Part shown: piece after piece, positions 9,721-60,809 of the stretch | How positions within the stretch are numbered: the first letter of the stretch is position 1 | Layout of the letters: every line of letters starts with the position of its first letter | Assembly: GCA_001723845.1 (NCBI GenBank) | Contig: MCBE01000217.1 | Coordinates: 1 to 60,809, forward strand | Origin: Candidatus Altarchaeales archaeon WOR_SM1_SCG | GTDB lineage: Archaea; Altiarchaeota; Altiarchaeia; IMC4; WOR-SM1-SCG | Direction of reading: 5' to 3' | DNA: 60,809 nucleotides | The notes under the pieces: model-generated | Told to the model about the DNA's origin: nothing | Databases searched by the model: none | Seen by the model: the letters and a program-made list of their open reading frames with translations, nothing else | Position numbers and translations under genes: made by a program

Positions 9721-10038
9721 ATGATAACTCAAAAGCAGATAAATGAAGTGGTTGAGGTGATTGTAAGTAAATTTAAGCCCGAAAAGATAATTCTTTTTGG
9801 TTCCTATGCTTCCGGAACACCAACAGAAGAAAGCGACCTGGATTTACTGGTAATCAAAGACAGCGATGTTCCTTCGCGTTTACAGAACAGGGAGGTTCGG
9901 AAAGTAACATCCGGCTTAAAGATTCCAATAGATGTGATTGTAAAAACCAAAAATGACTTTGAGAAATATAAGGATATTGTCGGAACAATTATATATCCTG
10001 CAAATAAATTCGGGAGGGTTGTCTATGAATCAAGATAA
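9721..10038 (+). CDS. MNT-type minimal nucleotidyltransferase (antitoxin)
   Basis: 105 residues with the pol-beta nucleotidyltransferase core I-L-F-G-S-Y-A-S-G-T-P-x-E-x-S-D-L-D-L-L-V (about 25-45) and a third acid in I-D-V-I-V. In HEPN/MNT modules this protein neutralises the HEPN RNase, in characterised cases by AMPylating it. It overlaps the next gene by 14 bases. The pair sits between ribC and ribH and so interrupts the riboflavin cluster. Confidence 0.88.
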   Translation: MITQKQINEVVEVIVSKFKPEKIILFGSYASGTPTEESDLDLLVIKDSDVPSRLQNREVRKVTSGLKIPIDVIVKTKNDFEKYKDIVGTIIYPANKFGRVVYESR

Positions 10039-10459
10039 AATTATTAAAGATCTGGTTTGCAAATGGATCAAGAAGGCAAAAAACGATCTCTTGAGTGCGG
10101 AAAGGGAATTATCCTTTGAAGATCCAATTACAGATGTGGTGTGTTTTCACTGCCAGCAATCAGCAGAGAAGTACCTGAAAGCGTTTTTGGTGCATCACCA
10201 GGTTTATTTTCCTATGACACATAGGATACTGGAATTATTAGAACTATGCGCCACTATAGACCTTTCTTTCAGGGAAGAACTTGAGGACGCGGACATTCTC
10301 ACGGATTATGCTGTAGAACTTCGTTACCCTGACATCTGGCTTGAAACAGGCATAGAAGAGTCAAAAGAAGCCCTTGAAATAGCAAAGAAAGTGAAGGAGT
10401 TTGTGTTGAAAAAATTAGGGGTTGAAAGTGATAAAAATACTAAACAAAATCAAACATAA
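10025..10459 (+). CDS. HEPN-domain protein (toxin of HEPN/MNT pair)
   Basis: 144 residues from the ATG at 10025. This start is chosen because a GGGAGG sequence lies 7-12 bases upstream and it overlaps the MNT stop, a typical coupled arrangement; longer upstream starts would run deep into the MNT gene. C-F-H-C-Q-Q-S-A-E-K-Y-L-K-A-F is the family helix, followed by T-H-R-I-L-E-L-L and E-L-R-Y-P-D-I-W. HEPN proteins of this group are RNases or RNase-like toxins. Confidence 0.85.
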   Translation: MNQDKIIKDLVCKWIKKAKNDLLSAERELSFEDPITDVVCFHCQQSAEKYLKAFLVHHQVYFPMTHRILELLELCATIDLSFREELEDADILTDYAVELRYPDIWLETGIEESKEALEIAKKVKEFVLKKLGVESDKNTKQNQT

Positions 10460-12012: not shown

Positions 12013-12372
12013 ATGAAACAAGAGATTAAAAATTGGCTAAAAAAAGCAGAGCATGATTTTGTTACATCCAAGGTGAATTTTCAACAGGAAATTTACGACG
12101 CATCTGCCTTTTTCTGCCAGCAGGCAGTGGAGAAGGCACTAAAAGCGTTATACATCCGGAAATTTGAGAAACTCATCAGAACTCATGATCTGGTCTATCT
12201 CGGAAAGAAGGTTAACCTACCTGATGAATTATTGGAATTTTGCGATGAAATATCATCATTTTATATTGAAACAAGGTATCCCGACAGCTACGCTGAGTTT
12301 GAAAAGGACTATGTGGAGGATGCCATAAATAAAGCTGAGGAGGTGATAAAATGGGTGAAAGAAAACATTTAA
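12013..12372 (+). CDS. HEPN-domain toxin
   Basis: 119 residues: W-L-K-K-A-E-H-D-F near the start, A-F-F-C-Q-Q-A-V-E-K-A-L-K-A-L, R-T-H-D-L-V-Y-L and T-R-Y-P-D-S-Y, the standard PF05168-type HEPN signature. It is the putative ribonuclease partner of the nucleotidyltransferase whose start overlaps its 3' end by 22 bases. Gene order (HEPN first) is opposite to the 10-kb pair, so the two modules were acquired separately. Confidence 0.87.
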   Translation: MKQEIKNWLKKAEHDFVTSKVNFQQEIYDASAFFCQQAVEKALKALYIRKFEKLIRTHDLVYLGKKVNLPDELLEFCDEISSFYIETRYPDSYAEFEKDYVEDAINKAEEVIKWVKENI

Positions 12373-12665
12373 TAGAAAACATAAGAAAATTTAAAAACAA
12401 TTTAAACAGGGAAAAAAGAATTGATAAAATCATATTATTCGGTTCAAGAGCCACCGGCAGGTCCCAAAAAGACAGCGATGCGGACTTGATAATCGTTTCC
12501 CCGTTTTTCAGGGAAATGAAATCCGGGAGAGCAAGAGGACTCCACAAATACTGGAACCTTGACATGCCGGTGGATTTTATCTGCTACACGCCGGAGGAGT
12601 TTGAAGAGAAGAGAAAACAGGTGTCGCTTGTTAGATTAGCTGTTGAGGAGGGGATTGAGATATGA
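12351..12665 (+). CDS. MNT-type nucleotidyltransferase (antitoxin)
   Basis: 104 residues with I-L-F-G-S-R-A-T-G-R-S-x-K-D-S-D-A-D-L-I-I-V, the pol-beta core with both metal-binding Asp residues, and V-D-F-I-C for the third. A strong GAGGAGGTG lies 7 bases upstream of the ATG, inside the HEPN gene, so translation is SD-dependent and coupled. The pair lies between the two RuBisCO 5' ends. Confidence 0.88.
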   Translation: MGERKHLIENIRKFKNNLNREKRIDKIILFGSRATGRSQKDSDADLIIVSPFFREMKSGRARGLHKYWNLDMPVDFICYTPEEFEEKRKQVSLVRLAVEEGIEI

Positions 12666-12735: not shown

Positions 12736-13866
12736 ATGGCACTAATTGATATATTAAAGGAACCTTGGAATCTACTTAATAAACATTCGGCGGTAGGTGT
12801 TTTGATTGGGATAGTGGGTGTTTTGGTAGCGATTATCTCGCTTGTCCTATACATATTGAATAGTACACCAATAGATCCAATTTATGCTACAAGCCCATCG
12901 GAACTAATAGCAAAGACAGGTGAGAATGCTCCTCGCATGACTATCCTATGGGATGGTTCAGAAGTTTCAGATGTTAGGTCTGTAAAAGTTGCCTTTTGGA
13001 ATTCGGGGTCTGAATATATAGATGTCAAGAATATTCCAAAAGATAATCCAATTCAATTTGTACCTTCAGAAAAAGTTGAAATACTATCTGTAGAGTTATT
13101 AAAGTCAAGTAGGGAAAATTTGAAATTTAACACTTCAATCAAAGATGACTCAACATTGGGGCGACAAGTAGTTCAAGTTGACATTGTGGGTGATGAGGCG
13201 ATTGAACGACTGGATGGTGGGCTTTTTAAAGTCTTGTATACTGGAAAAGAAGAAAATGTTGAGTTTTCTGTAAATGGACGCATAAAAGGCGCACCTGAGG
13301 GGTTTAAGAAAAAGGATTGGAACGAAATTCAAAGATCTAAATTTATTAATTTTGGCTTTAGTTTTGTTGCGGGTATTTTTGCTATAATTGGTATCTCTTG
13401 GTACATTATTAGCCCACTTAAAAACGAAATAGAAAAGGGGTTGGATTTGTTTAGCTGGGATGATGTCCCTGGAAACGATAGTGAACACATGATAGAATTT
13501 TTAAAATATGATATGAAAATAGAATGGGTGGAAAATGCAGAAATCAAAAAAAGCGATGATGACAAAGTCATAACTGTTACAAATAGAGAGAACTCCATCG
13601 CATTCAACCTTAAAAAAGAAGAAAACAAAGTAACTCTGAAAATCAATGGTGTGAAGAGTCATGAATACATTTTGAAAGAAGATAAAGGTAATCTAAATAT
13701 ATACAATGATTTCTCTCTTAAAAACATTAGAGATGATCAGGACACATTCGGAAGATTATTGATATCTGCCCTAATATTATTATTTTTCATATATTTATCT
13801 GGCTCAAATATTATTGAATACTTTCATTATTTGGACATTCCCACTTGGCTTATTCACTTGGTATAG
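12736..13866 (+). CDS. Membrane protein carrying the mobile 86-residue domain
   Basis: 376 residues, no known family. A membrane segment at about 20-40 is followed by a probably extracytoplasmic beta-rich part (about 45-200), a second membrane segment (about 205-227), then the 86-residue L-F-S-W...L-N-I-Y module at 238-323 on the other side, and a final membrane segment (about 339-356). The module also occurs in the gene at 41106 and inside the transposase at 59790. The gene is the last cargo item between the two RuBisCO 5' ends. Function unknown. Confidence 0.7.
   Translation: MALIDILKEPWNLLNKHSAVGVLIGIVGVLVAIISLVLYILNSTPIDPIYATSPSELIAKTGENAPRMTILWDGSEVSDVRSVKVAFWNSGSEYIDVKNIPKDNPIQFVPSEKVEILSVELLKSSRENLKFNTSIKDDSTLGRQVVQVDIVGDEAIERLDGGLFKVLYTGKEENVEFSVNGRIKGAPEGFKKKDWNEIQRSKFINFGFSFVAGIFAIIGISWYIISPLKNEIEKGLDLFSWDDVPGNDSEHMIEFLKYDMKIEWVENAEIKKSDDDKVITVTNRENSIAFNLKKEENKVTLKINGVKSHEYILKEDKGNLNIYNDFSLKNIRDDQDTFGRLLISALILLFFIYLSGSNIIEYFHYLDIPTWLIHLV
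13447..13704 (+). repeat. Mobile domain, copy A (86 codons)
   Basis: Codes for L-F-S-W-D-D-V-P-G-N-D at its start and G-N-L-N-I-Y at its end, with E-N-S-I-A and Y-I-L-K-E-D-K-G in between. One predicted helix is followed by about six short beta strands in hairpins. It has the same length as copy C (60393-60650) and is one residue shorter than copy B (41562-41822). Confidence 0.85.
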
Positions 13867-33155: not shown

Positions 33156-33734
33156 TTATTCTACTATTATAATTTTATCGCAGAATTGTGCAAGGAATGG
33201 AATAATTTTTTCCTCTGTTCCTGCGTTTAATGACATTAAAATTCCTTTTAAATTACTGATTCGCATTCTTATTGTTAAGAAATGCTGGAATTTTTTGGCG
33301 GTTCCCGAGGAATTGTAAATATATAATGCGGATACCGAGTCAACAAATAAAAATCCCTTCTTGTTTTTTGATGCCCGGATGGACTCATCTATCGCAACAC
33401 CCAGGTCGCTTATTTCCTTCGGCGAGGGAATAAATAAACAATTTTTTGTTCGCTCATGATTGCCCTTTTTTGTTTTTGTCACAAGGTCAATAAAAAACAA
33501 CTTACCCGTATCTACGCCTGCATCGTGCAGTGCATTTGAAATCAAATCAAAGGGTTTATCAAAAGTGATATAAAGACCTGAATTTTTCTCTTCATTACAT
33601 AATAATTTTAAAATTTTAATGTTCGTGCTTTCATACCTGTCTTCCGGCGAGACGATTAAAACTATAAAGTCATCAGGAAGGTCTTTCAGGTGCTTCCCTA
33701 AATCCGCTAAATTAATTTTATCTTTACAACCCAT
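33156..33734 (-). CDS. RecA-like fold protein without P-loop (copy 1)
   Basis: 192 residues. F-I-V-L-I-V-S-P-E-D-R-Y-E-S-T-N takes the place of the Walker A strand-loop, L-F-F-I-D and F-L-F-V-D-S-V-S-A-L are later core strands, and R-M-R-I-S-N-L-K-G-I-L-M-S-L follows. The family (RAD55/KaiC-like, near DUF835) occurs beside archaeal signalling proteins. The lack of G-x-x-x-x-G-K argues against normal ATP hydrolysis. It is about 80% identical to the next gene. Confidence 0.65.
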   Translation of the reverse strand: MGCKDKINLADLGKHLKDLPDDFIVLIVSPEDRYESTNIKILKLLCNEEKNSGLYITFDKPFDLISNALHDAGVDTGKLFFIDLVTKTKKGNHERTKNCLFIPSPKEISDLGVAIDESIRASKNKKGFLFVDSVSALYIYNSSGTAKKFQHFLTIRMRISNLKGILMSLNAGTEEKIIPFLAQFCDKIIIVE

Positions 33735-33798: not shown

Positions 33799-34377
33799 TT
33801 ATTGAACACTTATGGTTTTATCGCAGAATTGTGCAAGGAACGAAACGATTTCTTTTTCCGTTTCCCCGGGCAGTGACATTAAAATTCCTTTTAAATTACC
33901 GATCCGCATTCTTATTGTTAAGAAATGCTGGAATTTTTTGGCGGTTCCCGCGGAATTGTAGAAGTATAATGCGGATACTGAGTCAACAAATAAAAATTTT
34001 TTATTATTCATTGAAGCATGAATGGACTCATCTATCGCAATACCCAGGTCGCTTATTTCCTTCGGCGAGGGAATAAACAAACAATTTTCTGTTCGCTCGT
34101 AGCTGCCTTTTTTTGTTTTTGTCACAAGGTCAATAAAAAACAACTTACTCGTATCTACGCCTGCATCGTGCAGTGTCTTTGAAACCAGATCATAGGGTTT
34201 ATCAAAAGTGATATAAAGACCCGGACTTTTCTCCTCATTGCATAATAATTTTAAAATTTCAATGTTCGTGCTTTCATATTTATCTTCCGGCGAGACAATT
34301 AAAACTATAAAATTATCCGGGATATTTTTTAAATGTTTTCCTAACTCCGAAAGATTAATTTTATCATCATGTATCAT
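33799..34377 (-). CDS. RecA-like fold protein without P-loop (copy 2)
   Basis: 192 residues from the ATG at 34377, chosen because the homologous copy starts at the same place (K-M-I-H-D-D-K-I-N-L-S-E-L versus M-G-C-K-D-K-I-N-L-A-D-L); a longer frame from 34440 would add a hydrophobic 21-residue leader. It keeps F-L-F-V-D-S-V-S-A-L and lacks a P-loop. A tandem duplicate of 33156-33734. Confidence 0.65.
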   Translation of the reverse strand: MIHDDKINLSELGKHLKNIPDNFIVLIVSPEDKYESTNIEILKLLCNEEKSPGLYITFDKPYDLVSKTLHDAGVDTSKLFFIDLVTKTKKGSYERTENCLFIPSPKEISDLGIAIDESIHASMNNKKFLFVDSVSALYFYNSAGTAKKFQHFLTIRMRIGNLKGILMSLPGETEKEIVSFLAQFCDKTISVQ

Positions 34378-34536
34378 CTTATTAATATATGGTAATATTA
34401 TTAAATTTAGAATTATTGGAATATATAAACAATTTAACAATTTTATTTCTTAATAAATAATTGAATAATTTGTGATCGCTTAATCTTGTGATAAGGATTC
34501 GTTGTTTAAATACTGTTTTAGGGCACACAACAAAAA

Positions 34537-40876: not shown

Positions 40877-41095
40877 ATGGTAAATGTTATACATTGCCCC
40901 CATTGTGGAGTTGAACTTGGATTGAATGCCAATAACGACAATTTTTTTAACGGTGAGAAAAGAATAACTCTGATGTGCCCAAAGCCAAAATGTAAAAGTG
41001 TATTTTCTACGGATGGAACAGATGAGGGTACAAAATTTGTCAGATTACGACAACGACATTGTGATCCCATGAGAGCACTGGCTTTGCATTATTAA
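40877..41095 (+). CDS. Small zinc-ribbon protein
   Basis: 72 residues: C-P-H-C-G-V-E-L at the start and M-C-P-K-P-K-C-K-S later, two Cys pairs that would bind one zinc. The tail R-Q-R-H-C-D-P-M is unassigned. First gene of a five-gene unit of unknown function; 10 bases separate it from the next. Confidence 0.55.
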   Translation: MVNVIHCPHCGVELGLNANNDNFFNGEKRITLMCPKPKCKSVFSTDGTDEGTKFVRLRQRHCDPMRALALHY

Positions 41096-41105
41096 AACTA
41101 CTAAA

Positions 41106-42038
41106 ATGTACAATGAAGATGAAAAACCTATAACAAAGGATTTTAAGATAGGTGAGGAAACTTACGGTCTTGTTTTGACTTTGAGCAACGATTATTCTTA
41201 CATTGAAAGAGATTTTGATAAGTTAAAAAATAAAATTGAAAAATATGGGGGTGCAAAGATTATATGGGTGAACTCTCTTTTTGGCATACAAGACTCGGTA
41301 ATTCTTCTACGCGCAACAGGAGATATGGACAAAGCAGTACATGTTTTTGATGAATGGGTCGTTACCAATTATAAAAACGCTAAAACCCCTGCAATTCCTT
41401 TACCATTTAAACATCTTAGTTATACTGCGGAAAAAGATATGTTAGAAGATGTGTTTAATGCGATAGAATCGCCTAAAAGCGTTGCAAAGTTTGGTCAAAA
41501 AGATCCTAAATTAGGATATGTAAATATTATGGGGGAGTGGGGAAGAATGACAAAGAGATATTTATTTAGCTTGAATGAGCTATCTGGAGAAAACAAAAAT
41601 CAGTTTCTAAAATTCATTGAGAAAGAGTTAGACATACCTGTAGCGAAAAATCCAAAAATCATTAAATCTGATAACAAGGAAATAATTATAAGGGATGATA
41701 AAAACTGGATTAACCTTAAACTTGATATCAACACAGATGAGAAAAAGATAAATATAACAGTCTCTGGCGGAAAAACTTATGAATACGTTTTAGAAAAAGA
41801 AAGTGGCAAGCTAAACATATATACAAAAGGTGAAATAAGGAAAAAATTTGAAGTTTTTGAGTACTGGGTAGATCCACTAATTCCTATTTTTGTTAATGAA
41901 CCGATATTAAAAGAAAATAATTCTCCTTTTGTAATAATCTATTTGAGATTTGATAAAAGAAAGGGATACTCTTTAAAAGATACGTATTCTGCGTTTAACA
42001 CTCATGAAAATCTAAAATCTATGGACTTTTGGAAATGA
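41106..42038 (+). CDS. Unknown protein containing the mobile domain
   Basis: 310 residues with no recognised family outside residues 153-239, where the 87-residue mobile module sits (L-F-S-L-N-E-L-S-G-E-N to K-L-N-I-Y). The N-terminal 145 residues are mixed alpha/beta (L-V-L-T-L-S-N-D-Y, V-I-L-L-R-A-T-G-D), and the C-terminal 65 residues contain F-V-I-I-Y-L-R-F-D. The module is internal, so either it was inserted in frame or it links two halves. Second gene of the operon. Confidence 0.6.
   Translation: MYNEDEKPITKDFKIGEETYGLVLTLSNDYSYIERDFDKLKNKIEKYGGAKIIWVNSLFGIQDSVILLRATGDMDKAVHVFDEWVVTNYKNAKTPAIPLPFKHLSYTAEKDMLEDVFNAIESPKSVAKFGQKDPKLGYVNIMGEWGRMTKRYLFSLNELSGENKNQFLKFIEKELDIPVAKNPKIIKSDNKEIIIRDDKNWINLKLDINTDEKKINITVSGGKTYEYVLEKESGKLNIYTKGEIRKKFEVFEYWVDPLIPIFVNEPILKENNSPFVIIYLRFDKRKGYSLKDTYSAFNTHENLKSMDFWK
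41562..41822 (+). repeat. Mobile domain, copy B (87 codons)
   Basis: Same helix plus beta-hairpin pattern as copies A and C: L-F-S-L opening, then I-I-K-S-D-N-K-E-I-I-I, K-K-I-N-I-T-V-S-G-G-K-T-Y-E-Y-V-L and G-K-L-N-I-Y. The W and P-G-N-D of the opening are replaced by L and S-G-E-N, so this copy is the most diverged. Confidence 0.8.
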
Positions 42039-42045
42039 GAACATT

Positions 42046-42420
42046 TTGTTAAATTCCTCATCTTTGATAACTTTTCCACAGAATAGCAAAGGACAGATAG
42101 ATGATGAAGAATGTTTCTGCTTTTCCACGATGTTAAAAATCAGTACTATATCCGAAAGAGAGGGTATATGGAAAAATATAGAGAACTTTGGAAAAAGTAT
42201 TGGGCTTGAGAATGTTCATATAGAAAAAGATAAAAATCTTCATGAAAATCCTTTGATTAGGCTTGGGCAAGGGATTATTGATATTCACATTTATTATAAG
42301 GCAAAAATATCTAAAATGAAAGAATTTGTGGATGTCATAAATACCTTTCCATTTGTTGAAGATACATCAACTGTAATCCTTTACGATATCGAATGCCTAT
42401 CTCAGAAATTTAATTCATAA
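42046..42420 (+). CDS. Hypothetical protein, third gene of the unknown operon
   Basis: Open frame of 124 codons from a TTG at 42046; the first ATG in frame is at 42130 and would give 96 residues (M-L-K-I-S-T-I-S-E-R-E-G-I-W). No family recognised. The C-terminus (F-V-D-V-I-N-T-F-P-F-V-E-D) looks like a ferredoxin-like alpha/beta fold. The preceding gene stops 8 bases before the TTG, and no gap would favour the longer form. Confidence 0.5.
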   Translation: MLNSSSLITFPQNSKGQIDDEECFCFSTMLKISTISEREGIWKNIENFGKSIGLENVHIEKDKNLHENPLIRLGQGIIDIHIYYKAKISKMKEFVDVINTFPFVEDTSTVILYDIECLSQKFNS

Positions 42421-42435
42421 TCTATTATTTTTAAA

Positions 42436-44199
42436 ATGGAAAAAGTTGGAGTAACGCCATTTAACAACGCTATAGATACCTTAAAGCGATTGAAGATAGC
42501 AGCGAAACATATGGAAACGAAGTGGAAAATTTATGAGAGTAATGGTTATCTTCCACATACAGAGGTGTTTGATAAAATATTGAGGACCTTTCTTTTCGAA
42601 TTGGAAAACAGGGAAAGTAAAGGAGTAGAGGAACAATTAAGAGCTTCAGAAATAGAAAGCAACAAAACGATTAAGAAATCCATAGAGAGTATATTTGGGG
42701 AACCATTAATCCCGCTCCTCAAAGATACAATGACGATGGAAGAAGGAAAAAGGTATGACTTTCTTGAATTTTTTGATGAGGATAATCGGTATGTAGAGTA
42801 TTTTCAAATGTTGGTGAAAGATTACGAAGATATATCAGAAGAAGCTGTTCAATATTTTCAACAAATAAGTAAAGAGGAAGATGATGCTAATTATATTGGG
42901 GGGTTGACCAGTATTCATGCCCACATATATACTGGTGTAAAGATATGTTACGATATGATAAATGCTACAGAACATATATTTAGGAACAGATTAGTGGGTG
43001 TGTTTTCTTCTGATGTTATATATGGTAGGGAAAATTCAGTAAGGAAGTTTGGAGGTTTACAATTGATGTACAATGCATCAGAGTCTCTATTAAAGGATTA
43101 TACTAAAAGTATAAACTGGCAAAAAACTAAAGTAAAGAGTACAGATTTTGAGGAGATATTGGGGAACGATTATACGGGTCTTGTCGGATTTGGGTTTAGG
43201 AACAGGGCATTAACATACTCTATACCTCAATTAATCATTCTTCCTCATTATGCATTAAGGAAGGTTAACTATTTTCCTATACTAGCTCATGAAGCGTTTC
43301 ATATTTTGGACGCGTTCAATTTTAAAAGATTAACAAAGAGGAAAGAAGAGAGAAATATAGTAATAAAAGGAGAAATACAAAACCTTTTAGAGAATTCTAT
43401 ATTGGTTAAGGTATATGGGTCTGAAGAGAATCCAGATAGGAATACTCCAAAAAATGTAAGAGCACATGAATTAGCGAAAGAGATAATGGCAGATATATTT
43501 GCTGTGTGTGTTGCTGGAGACGCTTATGCCATAACAATGAGTAAGTATTATCTGCCCTTATTAGTTGATATGGAATGTGGAGATAGATTGGATAAAACAT
43601 ATGCAGAGTTTAGGATAGGTTCACTTAGGTTGAGAATAATATTGTCTGCAACAGAACATATATGGGGTAAAGTTTTATCTGAACCTGAAAAAGAAGCCAT
43701 AAAAAGAATCAGAGAAGATATAAATAGGTGGGAAAATTTAAGTCTAAATATTCCAAGATTAGTTTTCGAAGAGAAAAAACTTAAAAAATATAAATTATTG
43801 AAGAATAATAAAAAAGAAAAATGGGATATACAAGACAAGATAGAGAAATTAGAAAAAGATATAAAGAATATGACTATTTCAATTAAAAAACAAGAAAGAT
43901 TACAAATATACGATTACTTTTTTCACAGAGTTATAAATACCCCTTATTTGTACATTTCCGATGGCAAAATATTAAAGGAACAAAAAGATAGCATTAAAGA
44001 AGCCAAGGATGTGTTAACGTCTTCTCCAGACCCACTTGAAGTTTCAAAATTGTTTGATAAAAATGAATATCCTTACCTCATGCCAAGACACATTATTTCA
44101 TTATTTGTCAAAGACGATAAAAAAATAAATGTAAACTCTGTTTTAATGTATTTAGCACATCATAAAAATATTTTAGATAGATTTGAAAATGGGAAATGA
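42436..44199 (+). CDS. Predicted zinc metallopeptidase, unknown family
   Basis: 587 residues, mainly helical. F-P-I-L-A-H-E-A-F-H-I-L-D (His pair at about residue 284) is an HExxH zinc site, and about 65 residues later A-H-E-L-A-K-E-I-M-A-D-I-F-A-V supplies the E-x-x-x-D of a gluzincin-like third ligand. Flanking regions match nothing I know. Residues about 440-490 are a coiled coil. It overlaps the next gene by 11 bases. Peptidases in such orphan operons often activate a partner by cleavage, but that is inference. Confidence 0.6.
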   Translation: MEKVGVTPFNNAIDTLKRLKIAAKHMETKWKIYESNGYLPHTEVFDKILRTFLFELENRESKGVEEQLRASEIESNKTIKKSIESIFGEPLIPLLKDTMTMEEGKRYDFLEFFDEDNRYVEYFQMLVKDYEDISEEAVQYFQQISKEEDDANYIGGLTSIHAHIYTGVKICYDMINATEHIFRNRLVGVFSSDVIYGRENSVRKFGGLQLMYNASESLLKDYTKSINWQKTKVKSTDFEEILGNDYTGLVGFGFRNRALTYSIPQLIILPHYALRKVNYFPILAHEAFHILDAFNFKRLTKRKEERNIVIKGEIQNLLENSILVKVYGSEENPDRNTPKNVRAHELAKEIMADIFAVCVAGDAYAITMSKYYLPLLVDMECGDRLDKTYAEFRIGSLRLRIILSATEHIWGKVLSEPEKEAIKRIREDINRWENLSLNIPRLVFEEKKLKKYKLLKNNKKEKWDIQDKIEKLEKDIKNMTISIKKQERLQIYDYFFHRVINTPYLYISDGKILKEQKDSIKEAKDVLTSSPDPLEVSKLFDKNEYPYLMPRHIISLFVKDDKKINVNSVLMYLAHHKNILDRFENGK

Positions 44200-45088
44200 A
44201 AATAAAAAACAGAAAGGAAAACTTGAGAAATTTGAAGAAGGAAAACTGAAGAAGAAACTCGAAAAAAAGGAAAAAGCAAAACATAAGAAAAGAGAAAAAG
44301 CAAAGGAGGAACCGAAAAAAGAATCCTTGAGAGAAACTAAAAAAGAGGTTTCTAATAATCCAAATAAGAAAGTTGGAGAGAAACCAAAAGATGTTGAAGA
44401 GAAGTCTGAGGAAAAGAAAAATGAAACTGAAAGATATTATGTGCAAGTAGGAGAAAAAAGAATTTGGAAATGTTCAAAATGTGGGAATGAAATATTTACT
44501 GGAACAGATATTCCGGGAATATGCTCAAGATGCGGATATATGGAGGAAGCTGAATTTTCGCCAAAAAGATTAAATATAGAGATCCTTGAAGGGATAATAT
44601 TTAGATTACCTTATCTTTTTGCAATATGTTTTTACTATTTGTTGATACTTGCAATCGTGTTTTTTATTTCCCACGATATTTTTGACCATTGGAATTCTGA
44701 CCCTTGCAAAAATGTAATAATTCTTGTCACGTATGCAGTTATATTTATAGGTTTGATAGATTTGACCCATGCCGTGACTGATTATCACACAAAACCTTTA
44801 CTTATCACTATGTATTTCTCTTGGCGGCCAACATCAAAAAAAGAAATGAAAGAATTCGGCGAAAAAACAAAACAAAATCTTAAAGATTATCCTTTACATT
44901 CATTAAAAATAGCATCTCTTATGATTATCATGGAGATTTTTATAATAATATTTGGAACATTTAAATCTAAAGAAAATCCACAAATTACTTTGGAATTTGG
45001 TCTGTTTATTTTATTTTCGCTTTTAGGTGTTGCTGCGATATTGTTTGTATTAAATAGATATAGATTTCCTGAAAAAATAAAAAATTAA
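44189..45088 (+). CDS. Membrane protein with charged coil and zinc ribbon
   Basis: 299 residues from the ATG at 44189 (a TTG two codons earlier is less likely). Residues 1-80 are an extremely Lys/Glu-rich coil, residues about 88-112 a zinc ribbon (W-K-C-S-K-C-G-N-E...C-S-R-C-G), followed by four membrane segments (about 137-160, 172-195, 245-262, 270-290). The start overlaps the peptidase gene, so the two are translationally coupled and the proteins probably work together at the membrane. Confidence 0.65.
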   Translation: MGNENKKQKGKLEKFEEGKLKKKLEKKEKAKHKKREKAKEEPKKESLRETKKEVSNNPNKKVGEKPKDVEEKSEEKKNETERYYVQVGEKRIWKCSKCGNEIFTGTDIPGICSRCGYMEEAEFSPKRLNIEILEGIIFRLPYLFAICFYYLLILAIVFFISHDIFDHWNSDPCKNVIILVTYAVIFIGLIDLTHAVTDYHTKPLLITMYFSWRPTSKKEMKEFGEKTKQNLKDYPLHSLKIASLMIIMEIFIIIFGTFKSKENPQITLEFGLFILFSLLGVAAILFVLNRYRFPEKIKN

Positions 45089-59588: not shown

Positions 59589-59789
59589 TATTTATACTTG
59601 AGTTTCAAAGATATTAGATTTCTAACATAATAAATTTTATTTACCCCATTTACTGATGTTGGTTTTTGTTATCTCACTTTTTGTATTTTGTTGCCATGTC
59701 AAAATTTTAAATAAAATCAGTGTGCTTTAATACTTTAACTAACAAATGTTGCCATGTCATTTAATTTATTTAATATCTAATACAATAAC

Positions 59790-60809
59790 ATGGAACTAAC
59801 AACTAAAGAAATAATGGCAATAAAACCCTACATTGAAATCATTAGAAAAAAAGGTAGAATGCCTCAATATACTCTTGTAAGAAAAAAACGGGTAAATGGA
59901 GAAGTAAAAAGAGTGTGGAGTAAGTATCTGGGCACAGCAGAAACGATCGAGAAATTCTATAAAAACTGTGAAGAATGCACTGATATGAAACTCAAAAGTT
60001 TTGAGTATGGAAGAACGGCAGCACTAATGAAAATAGCAGAAGAACTAAATTTTGTTGAGATCGTAAATAAACACACAACCAAAAAGAAGATTGAAGGGCT
60101 GACAGTTGGTGAATACATGCTATTGATTATCCTTAGCAGAGCCGATGAACCAATAAGCAAAAACGGAATCTCCGACTGGTTTGACGATTCTTTTCTCGAT
60201 TTAATGTGGGTATTTTCGCACAAACTGAACACTCAAAATTTTACGAACCACATGGATTATCTCACAGATGAAGTAATGCGAAAAATCGGGGATGACCTGG
60301 GAAAAAGACTTGTTGAGCTTGGTGTGGCACCAACAAAGTTATATATTGATATGAGCAATGTCTTCACATATATGGAAAATGGGGGAACGTATTTGTTTAG
60401 CTGGAATAATATTCCCGGAAACGACAGCAAGCGACTCATAAACCATCTTTTGGATAATCTAAAAATAGGTTGGGTAAAAAACGCAACAATCAATAAAAAC
60501 AATGACTGTAAAATAATAACAGTTACGGAAGGGGAAAACTCAGTTGAACTAAAACTTAACGAGAAAGAAAACAAAGTAGTCTTAAAAATCAGTGGCGGTA
60601 AAACCTATGAATATATCTTAAAAGAGAAGAAGGGTAAGCTAAAGGTATACGGCGGGGAGATGCCTAAAAAAGGTAGGGGTAAAGAGAAACGATATGATAA
60701 AAATATAATCGGCATAGGAATAGTAACAAGTGATGAAAACATCCCAATGCTTCACGAGTCATATCCCGGAAACAAGCACGATTCACAAATATTTGCCGGG
60801 ATTTTTATG
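59790..60809 (+). CDS. IS1634-like transposase, 5' part, with the mobile domain inserted
   Basis: 340 codons from ATG 59790 to the window end, no stop. The N-terminus V-W-S-K-Y-L-G-T-A and later G-L-T-V-G-E-Y-M-L match IS1634 transposases. L-Y-I-D-M-S-N-V-F-T-Y-M contains the first catalytic Asp (residue 187), and G-R-G-K-E-K-R-Y-D, P-M-L-H-E-S-Y-P-G-N-K-H-D come from the second-Asp region. Between them residues 202-287 are the foreign 86-residue module. The frame is intact, so the host protein may still be made, but the spacing of the catalytic acids is altered. Confidence 0.85.
   Translation, partial: MELTTKEIMAIKPYIEIIRKKGRMPQYTLVRKKRVNGEVKRVWSKYLGTAETIEKFYKNCEECTDMKLKSFEYGRTAALMKIAEELNFVEIVNKHTTKKKIEGLTVGEYMLLIILSRADEPISKNGISDWFDDSFLDLMWVFSHKLNTQNFTNHMDYLTDEVMRKIGDDLGKRLVELGVAPTKLYIDMSNVFTYMENGGTYLFSWNNIPGNDSKRLINHLLDNLKIGWVKNATINKNNDCKIITVTEGENSVELKLNEKENKVVLKISGGKTYEYILKEKKGKLKVYGGEMPKKGRGKEKRYDKNIIGIGIVTSDENIPMLHESYPGNKHDSQIFAGIFM
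60393..60650 (+). repeat. Mobile domain, copy C (86 codons, inside transposase)
   Basis: L-F-S-W-N-N-I-P-G-N-D opens it and G-K-L-K-V-Y closes it, with E-N-S-V-E-L-K-L and Y-E-Y-I-L-K-E in the same places as copies A and B. It is flanked by G-G on both sides (E-N-G-G-T-Y before, Y-G-G-E-M after), which may mark the insertion joint. Confidence 0.88.

Follow-up and report, generated by a model that had tools for sequence, protein, structure and literature searches.

Rickettsia palindromic elements (RPEs; Ogata et al. 2000, 2002) are, in the account given in PMC10969869, mobile elements of ~150 bp with an open frame, which enter the genes of unrelated proteins without shifting the frame and make the products longer, several families occurring per genome. 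According to the same account, nearly half of the first-reported RPEs lie in genes, these coming from three of ten families (PMC10969869). RPEs are the nearest precedent for the archaeal element presented here, which by analogy appears to work like an RPE. It was found in a 60,809-nucleotide stretch of DNA (hereafter the window), contig MCBE01000217.1 (C217) of Candidatus Altarchaeales archaeon WOR_SM1_SCG, a 2.55-Mb genome of the phylum Altiarchaeota that is 74% complete. The second gene of a five-gene operon in this window (gene 2, open reading frame (ORF) 41106..42038, plus strand) encodes a 310-aa orphan host protein broken by the in-frame element. We consider it very probable that gene 2 was entered by a short, non-autonomous element resembling miniature inverted-repeat transposable elements (MITEs), with terminal inverted repeats (TIRs) and an 8-bp target-site duplication (TSD), and that the element is translated in frame as an inset within the host protein.

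An inverted-repeat-bounded element in gene 2

The element (41558..41822, plus strand), delimited by family alignment, borders, TIRs and TSD, measures 265 bp in gene 2 as compared with 262 bp in its canonical form and encodes an 88-residue inset corresponding to residues ~152-239 of the gene product. Its left TIR (41558..41571, plus strand) reads ATATTTATTTAGCT, with the consensus GTATTTGTTTAGCT, and its right TIR (41809..41822, minus strand), read inward, is ATATATGTTTAGCT; 14 of the 16 terminal bases match between the two ends. The left and right copies of the TSD, ACAAAGAG (41550..41557) and ACAAAAGG (41823..41830), agree at six of eight bases. Across the family, designated here family 1, DNA borders are sharp, with GTATTTGTTTAGCTGG on the left and GCTAAACATATAC on the right as mutually inverted repeats; the TIRs are 13-14 bp long and many copies match at 11-14 of 16 positions.

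The duplication is a property of the family as a whole. TSD copies matched on average at 4.31 of 8 bases, as compared with 2.82 for randomly re-paired flanks (maximum of 3.39 in 5000 shuffles), and the signal was lost in other registers. All eight bases agree in four copies (L047, L050, L051 and L081) and seven in five copies (L056, L057, L064, L069 and L070). Family 1 shows several of the features by which MITEs are recognised: TIRs, a TSD, short length (262 bp), multiple copies (22 matches in the WOR_SM1_SCG genome when gene 2 is counted) and the lack of a transposase.

The canonical 262 bp and the 8-bp duplication together make 270 bp, or 90 codons, and the host reading frame is therefore kept; the sum of length and 8 is divisible by three in every copy, including those of other lengths. 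The element is open from end to end in the frame of the host gene, its ends themselves being coding (YLFSW... on the left and ...KLNIY on the right), and the host sequence often picks up after the inset with two or three duplicated residues. The nature of the in-frame element in gene 2 as a transposable, translated inset is firmly supported. An earlier, sequence-only reading of the window had described the gene 2 product as a mobile-domain protein, which was correct and was the key observation; what it missed is that the domain is itself a transposable element lying in frame.

Two further copies are present in the window, both on the plus strand: one at 13443..13704, inside an ORF of a 376-aa putative membrane protein (12736-13866), and another at 60389..60650, within an ORF resembling a transposase at the end of the contig, with identical copies in five other contigs. 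It should be added that the stretch 59781-60809, comprising this ORF with its inset, is identical at six contig ends (also C19, C41, C46, C281 and C292), so that an insertion sequence (IS) carrying the element was probably spreading and breaks the assembly.

AlphaFold2 predicted the inset from the window to fold compactly, with a pLDDT (predicted local distance difference test) of 92.5 and a pTM (predicted template modelling) score of 0.81, into a single helix plus about seven short strands, each end of the chain having strands close by; in this model the adjacency of the two termini is plausible. Foldseek searches with the predicted inset returned nothing below E 0.17 in the PDB or 0.074 among viral structures, and the best VIA-align Z-score (4.9, actin capping protein) was not distinctive, so that these comparisons gave no clear fold match.

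Host proteins, spread and nesting

Proteins that host the inset are unrelated to each other and include RNA polymerase A', CDC48, RadC, Cas3, TraB and LonB, as well as DNA methyltransferases, an HD-domain protein, a pentapeptide protein and a transposase; those of the RadC, Cas3, TraB and LonB kinds were recognised by their own family models. In CDC48 of ANME-2-type archaea (L115, L128 and L141), both flanks of the inset can be aligned to the VCP-like ATPase 5g4f, nine residues of the 5g4f chain lying opposite 94 query residues, and the inset segment has no counterpart in 5g4f. Furthermore, in several Halobacteriota genomes (about nine) the inset lies within an ORF of ~1050 residues, and the two such ORFs that were read (L184 and L185, from genomes G139 and G113) encode RNA polymerase subunit A'. 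Residues 10-156 of the query correspond to residues 5-151 of chain 8cro_A, and residues 314-1042 to 149-895, leaving 157 residues extra relative to 8cro_A.

Among 128 distinct insets, 110 have the host frame open for at least 20 codons on both sides, as opposed to 15 of 256 in a shifted-frame control; the remaining 18 are terminal fusions and isolated insets were not encountered. The genome searches read through stops and yet found very few stop-interrupted copies, with none among the matches of 49 positive Halobacteriota genomes. The ratio of non-synonymous to synonymous substitution rates (dN/dS) of orthologous insets was 0.12-0.58 where defined, that of hosts being usually lower, and between insets of unrelated hosts its median was 0.39 and its maximum 0.66 (40 pairs). 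Values below 1 indicate that the inset is under selection at the protein level, and this implies that insets are translated. In CDC48, amino-acid change was more than three times faster in the inset than in the host, as expected of a tolerated passenger.

These data also bear on a possible post-transcriptional or post-translational removal of the inset, as a mini-intein, an intron or by translational bypass, which would leave a normal host protein. Such removal would explain how proteins as essential as RNA polymerase A' tolerate the insertion, and pairing of the complementary ends is possible in an RNA fold; that fold, however, is ordinary (z -1.24), the frame is free of stops in nearly all copies and dN/dS is below 1. 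Moreover, intein splice residues are missing, since the inset begins and ends with Y, has neither an N-terminal Cys/Ser nor a C-terminal Asn, and its neighbouring residues vary. We therefore regard removal as most improbable; intein, intron and domain-shuffling readings were all weighed and ranked low.

Outside its own genome, family 1 gave 7-14 matches in each of four genomes of genus g19 from the same class, and it was present in 49 of the 392 sampled Halobacteriota genomes. A scan of GTDB revealed at least 126 relatives, of which 79 loci were kept, in Altiarchaeota, ANME-1/Methanophagales, ANME-2, Methanoperedens, Methanosarcina and Methanothrix. The overall number of matches exceeds 150, spread over Altiarchaeota, Methanoperedens, ANME-1, ANME-2 and Methanosarcina; viral contigs contained no relatives of the inset. 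One copy from ANME-1 and one from Altiarchaeota, situated in unrelated hosts, share 82.6% DNA identity, which points to horizontal transfer. Two copies carry bacterial labels, one from Ignavibacteria (L146) and one from Pelotomaculum (L160), and may reflect either horizontal transfer or wrong binning. In Methanosarcina UBA11020 (L144), five tandem paralogous lipoprotein-like genes have the inset at the same position, the inset having thus been duplicated along with its host gene.

An inverted-repeat search of the WOR_SM1_SCG genome recovered other elements with the same ends and a different cargo of ~65-75 residues, typically ~68 (YLFSL...YKKYL...LNIY). This family 2 element is about 200 bp long and occurs in 11 copies within long ORFs, plus one doubtful copy; copies were located at L170:5726-5932, L171:4948-5143, L172:2822-3048 and L050:5885-6089 and in ORFs of L058, L176, L047 and L052, and a PQQ-type propeller protein carries the family 2 inset after a repeat. 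In RNA polymerase A' (L184:2562-5708, and L185) family 1 is nested in family 2, near the second zinc-binding region: once family 1 was removed in silico, the family 2 model scored 23.5 bits over the joined flanks, as compared with at most 7.4 before. In other ORFs a family 1 element lies within or next to another of its family, and in L073 a family 2 element has family 1 as its surroundings. Certain proteins of Altarchaeum (L082, L086, L087, L101 and L112) bear two to four stacked partial insets each, as if elements had repeatedly entered elements at one point.

This evidence has to be set against a reading of the inset as an ordinary protein domain, spread by recombination or gene fusion and having a cellular role such as regulation or partner binding. 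Its compact predicted fold, the purifying selection acting on it, its persistence in conserved proteins and the terminal position of 18 of the 128 copies would all suit such a domain. On the other hand, the TIRs, the 8-bp duplications at many independent sites, the canonical length of 262 bp, the breaks within recognised domains, the nests of element in element and the occurrence of the same ends on a second, unrelated coding family are all hallmarks of transposition, and we find an ordinary domain very improbable.

As to the source of mobility, an element of 195 bp (contig C66:24368-24562; L169:4369-4563) shares the inverted repeats and is flanked by a perfect 8-bp duplication, CAAAATGA, while its interior differs; perhaps it is an IS that has lost internal sequence. 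At the ends of three contigs stands one and the same IS-like terminus of 126 bp with the TIR, and one of the three breaks a family 1 copy. Additionally, the ends of the transposase-borne copy recur without mismatch, but in other surroundings, in contigs C52 (125 bp) and C53 (60 bp), which suggests recent movement.

According to the transposable-element interpretation, a short MITE-like element would insert into a gene and keep the host frame, and the host would produce a longer protein in which a self-folding domain of ~87 residues may sit in a tolerant loop. Insertions in the wrong frame, in the wrong orientation or at intolerant sites would be lost, leaving only in-frame copies; transposase would be supplied in trans by an IS with matching ends, and the element may spread between archaeal phyla.

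Several points weigh against this interpretation. The copy in gene 2 is old, with its TSD matching at only 6/8 and the family residues W5 and W28 replaced, and no uninterrupted homologue of gene 2 exists to show the empty site directly. Element borders were placed on codons, so that divisibility by three is partly built in. The contigs derive mostly from metagenome assemblies, and low-scoring or stop-interrupted copies may be under-counted. Finally, a complete IS with the ends GTGTTTGTTTAGCT was not recovered, and for this reason mobilisation in trans by a co-resident IS is a step that we only infer.

The operon and its putative metallopeptidase

The sequence-only reading had drawn attention to 40877-45088 as an unrecognised operon of five genes, running head to tail with gaps of 7-15 bases or overlaps and encoding an unfamiliar zincin-like protein, and in these respects it was borne out. 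ORF coordinates confirm five same-strand ORFs in this interval, with intergenic gaps of 10, 7 and 15 bases and an overlap between the last two genes. The G+C content of the operon is 31.0%, versus 36.6% for the whole window, and ranks 15th lowest among 283 segments of equal size; an Rfam search around the operon gave no match.

All five genes lie on the plus strand. Gene 1 (40877..41095) encodes a zinc-ribbon-like protein of 72 aa (CPHC...CPKPKC), which matched zinc-ribbon models below curated cut-offs only and had no full-length relative in the phylum (29 genomes). For gene 2, no family of Pfam, NCBIfam, PADLOC or PHROGs gave a credible match, a Pfam search with the host part, the inset taken out, returned none either, and every confident match in genome searches falls within the inset; weak matches of residues 3-77 to carbamoyl-phosphate synthase ORFs were dismissed as chance. 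Gene 3 (42046..42420) encodes a small protein of ~124 aa if begun at TTG, and a shorter one if begun at the first ATG, with no family in Pfam, NCBIfam, PADLOC or PHROGs and no credible relative in the phylum. Gene 5 (44183/44189..45088) encodes a zinc-ribbon membrane protein of 301/299 aa, with rubredoxin/zinc-ribbon matches exclusively below threshold and no full-length relative in the phylum.

Gene 4 (42436..44199) encodes a zincin-like putative metallopeptidase. The HExxH...ExxxD signature and length of 587 residues attributed to it were both verified: the HEAFH motif occupies residues 285-289 (43288..43302, plus strand), and EIMAD (E349xxxD353; 43480..43494, plus strand) provides a candidate third zinc ligand. 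In shuffled versions of the protein HExxH arose in 3.0% and HExxH followed by ExxxD in 0.8%, and by these chance rates the motifs are suggestive and not a proof; the product is probably a zinc-dependent peptidase. The order HExxH then ExxxD is shared with M48-type gluzincin peptidases, from which gene 4 is set apart by having no Pfam, NCBIfam or PDB sequence match and an unreliable structure model (the single-sequence AlphaFold model, with pLDDT 37, was uninformative). No credible family was found in PADLOC or PHROGs either.

Relatives of gene 4 were found neither among the 29 genomes of its own phylum nor among 392 Halobacteriota genomes and 398 genomes of one bacterial phylum, nor in viral contig, plasmid or phage collections; a limited pattern scan of GTDB contigs likewise produced none. 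Six weak matches (E 0.004-0.01) were dropped, five falling in the coiled region 411-550, one at 111-184 and none over the catalytic part.

It had also been suggested that the operon serves an antiviral or stress function; in such a system the zinc-ribbon membrane protein would activate or anchor the zinc peptidase. This proposal concerns the operon and not the inset, and is compatible with the transposable nature of the latter. The HExxH plus ExxxD motifs of gene 4, the zinc-ribbon membrane protein encoded by the last gene, the low G+C content and the tight head-to-tail layout would be in keeping with it; against it, no defence model matched, the only PADLOC hits being weak ones, at E-values of 0.0098 and higher, in zinc-ribbon or charged parts of the gene 1 and gene 5 products, no defence neighbour is present within the operon, and the phylum, Halobacteriota, bacterial, viral, plasmid and phage searches offered no relatives in which an association could show. 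A defence role is a guess that finds no support here, and we hold it to be unlikely. The sequence-only reading had counted a failure of the peptidase and membrane protein to co-occur in other genomes as evidence against itself, and a conserved pair cannot be shown, because no relative of the peptidase was found. Overall, the operon is a modest orphan accessory unit.

Two features elsewhere in the window were noticed by eye. At 9721-10459 and 12013-12665, small genes of nucleotidyltransferase-like and HEPN-like type form two pairs reminiscent of MNT/HEPN toxin-antitoxin modules, and at 33156-33734 and 33799-34440 adjacent, closely similar KaiC/RecA-like ATPase genes appear to be a recent tandem duplication.

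Comparison with known elements

Transposons normally destroy the genes they enter, whereas the archaeal element keeps the frame and brings a domain predicted to be ready-folded, surviving in RNA polymerase, Lon, CDC48, RadC and Cas3 of uncultured archaea that cycle methane or live in the deep subsurface. It offers a way, open to testing, for proteins to acquire domains in their interior. It also accounts for puzzling insertions in archaeal proteins, by which annotation and structure prediction can be led astray, and supplies protein engineering with a benign inset domain and with sites whose tolerance of insertions has been selected in nature. Only tentatively, at somewhat less than even chances, do we propose a distinct class of transposons adapted to life inside proteins, defined by ends coding for strands that close a self-folding cargo domain, by a length that is a multiple of three together with the duplication, by at least two cargo families on the same ends, by nesting and by horizontal spread among archaea. 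Such a class would keep supplying core proteins with new domains, and the domain itself would possibly have a selected function.

A literature search that reached few subscription papers or preprints found no description of the inset peptides or of an archaeal in-frame element. Inteins, like the archaeal element, enter conserved proteins in frame, RNA polymerase and ATPases among them. Mini-inteins are longer than the inset, and the element differs from inteins in the missing splice residues, in the DNA inverted repeats at its ends and in showing no sign of excision. Borg elements of Methanoperedens contain in-frame tandem repeats that give rise to disordered protein regions; archaeal hosts overlap and additions are in frame in both cases, whereas the element described here is dispersed, bounded by TIRs and predicted to be folded.

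Prokaryotic MITEs are small, seemingly non-autonomous and multicopy, with TIRs and TSDs (PMC10969869), and the archaeal element is likewise, a resident IS-like end having the TIR. In-frame fusion is occasional among other MITEs (PMC10969869), in contrast to the conserved, selected domain and the nearly universal in-frame position of the copies reported here. With RPEs the archaeal element has in common short length, mobility, an open frame, in-frame insertion and several families per genome, a likeness drawn from the description in PMC10969869. It is distinguished from RPEs by its archaeal hosts, its size (~262 bp, or about 200 bp in family 2), short TIRs, 8-bp duplication and compact predicted domain, by nesting, by nearly every copy found being read in frame and by its broader spread; moreover, the whole-palindrome, stable-hairpin character of RPEs does not extend to the archaeal element, in which only the ends are clear inverted repeats.

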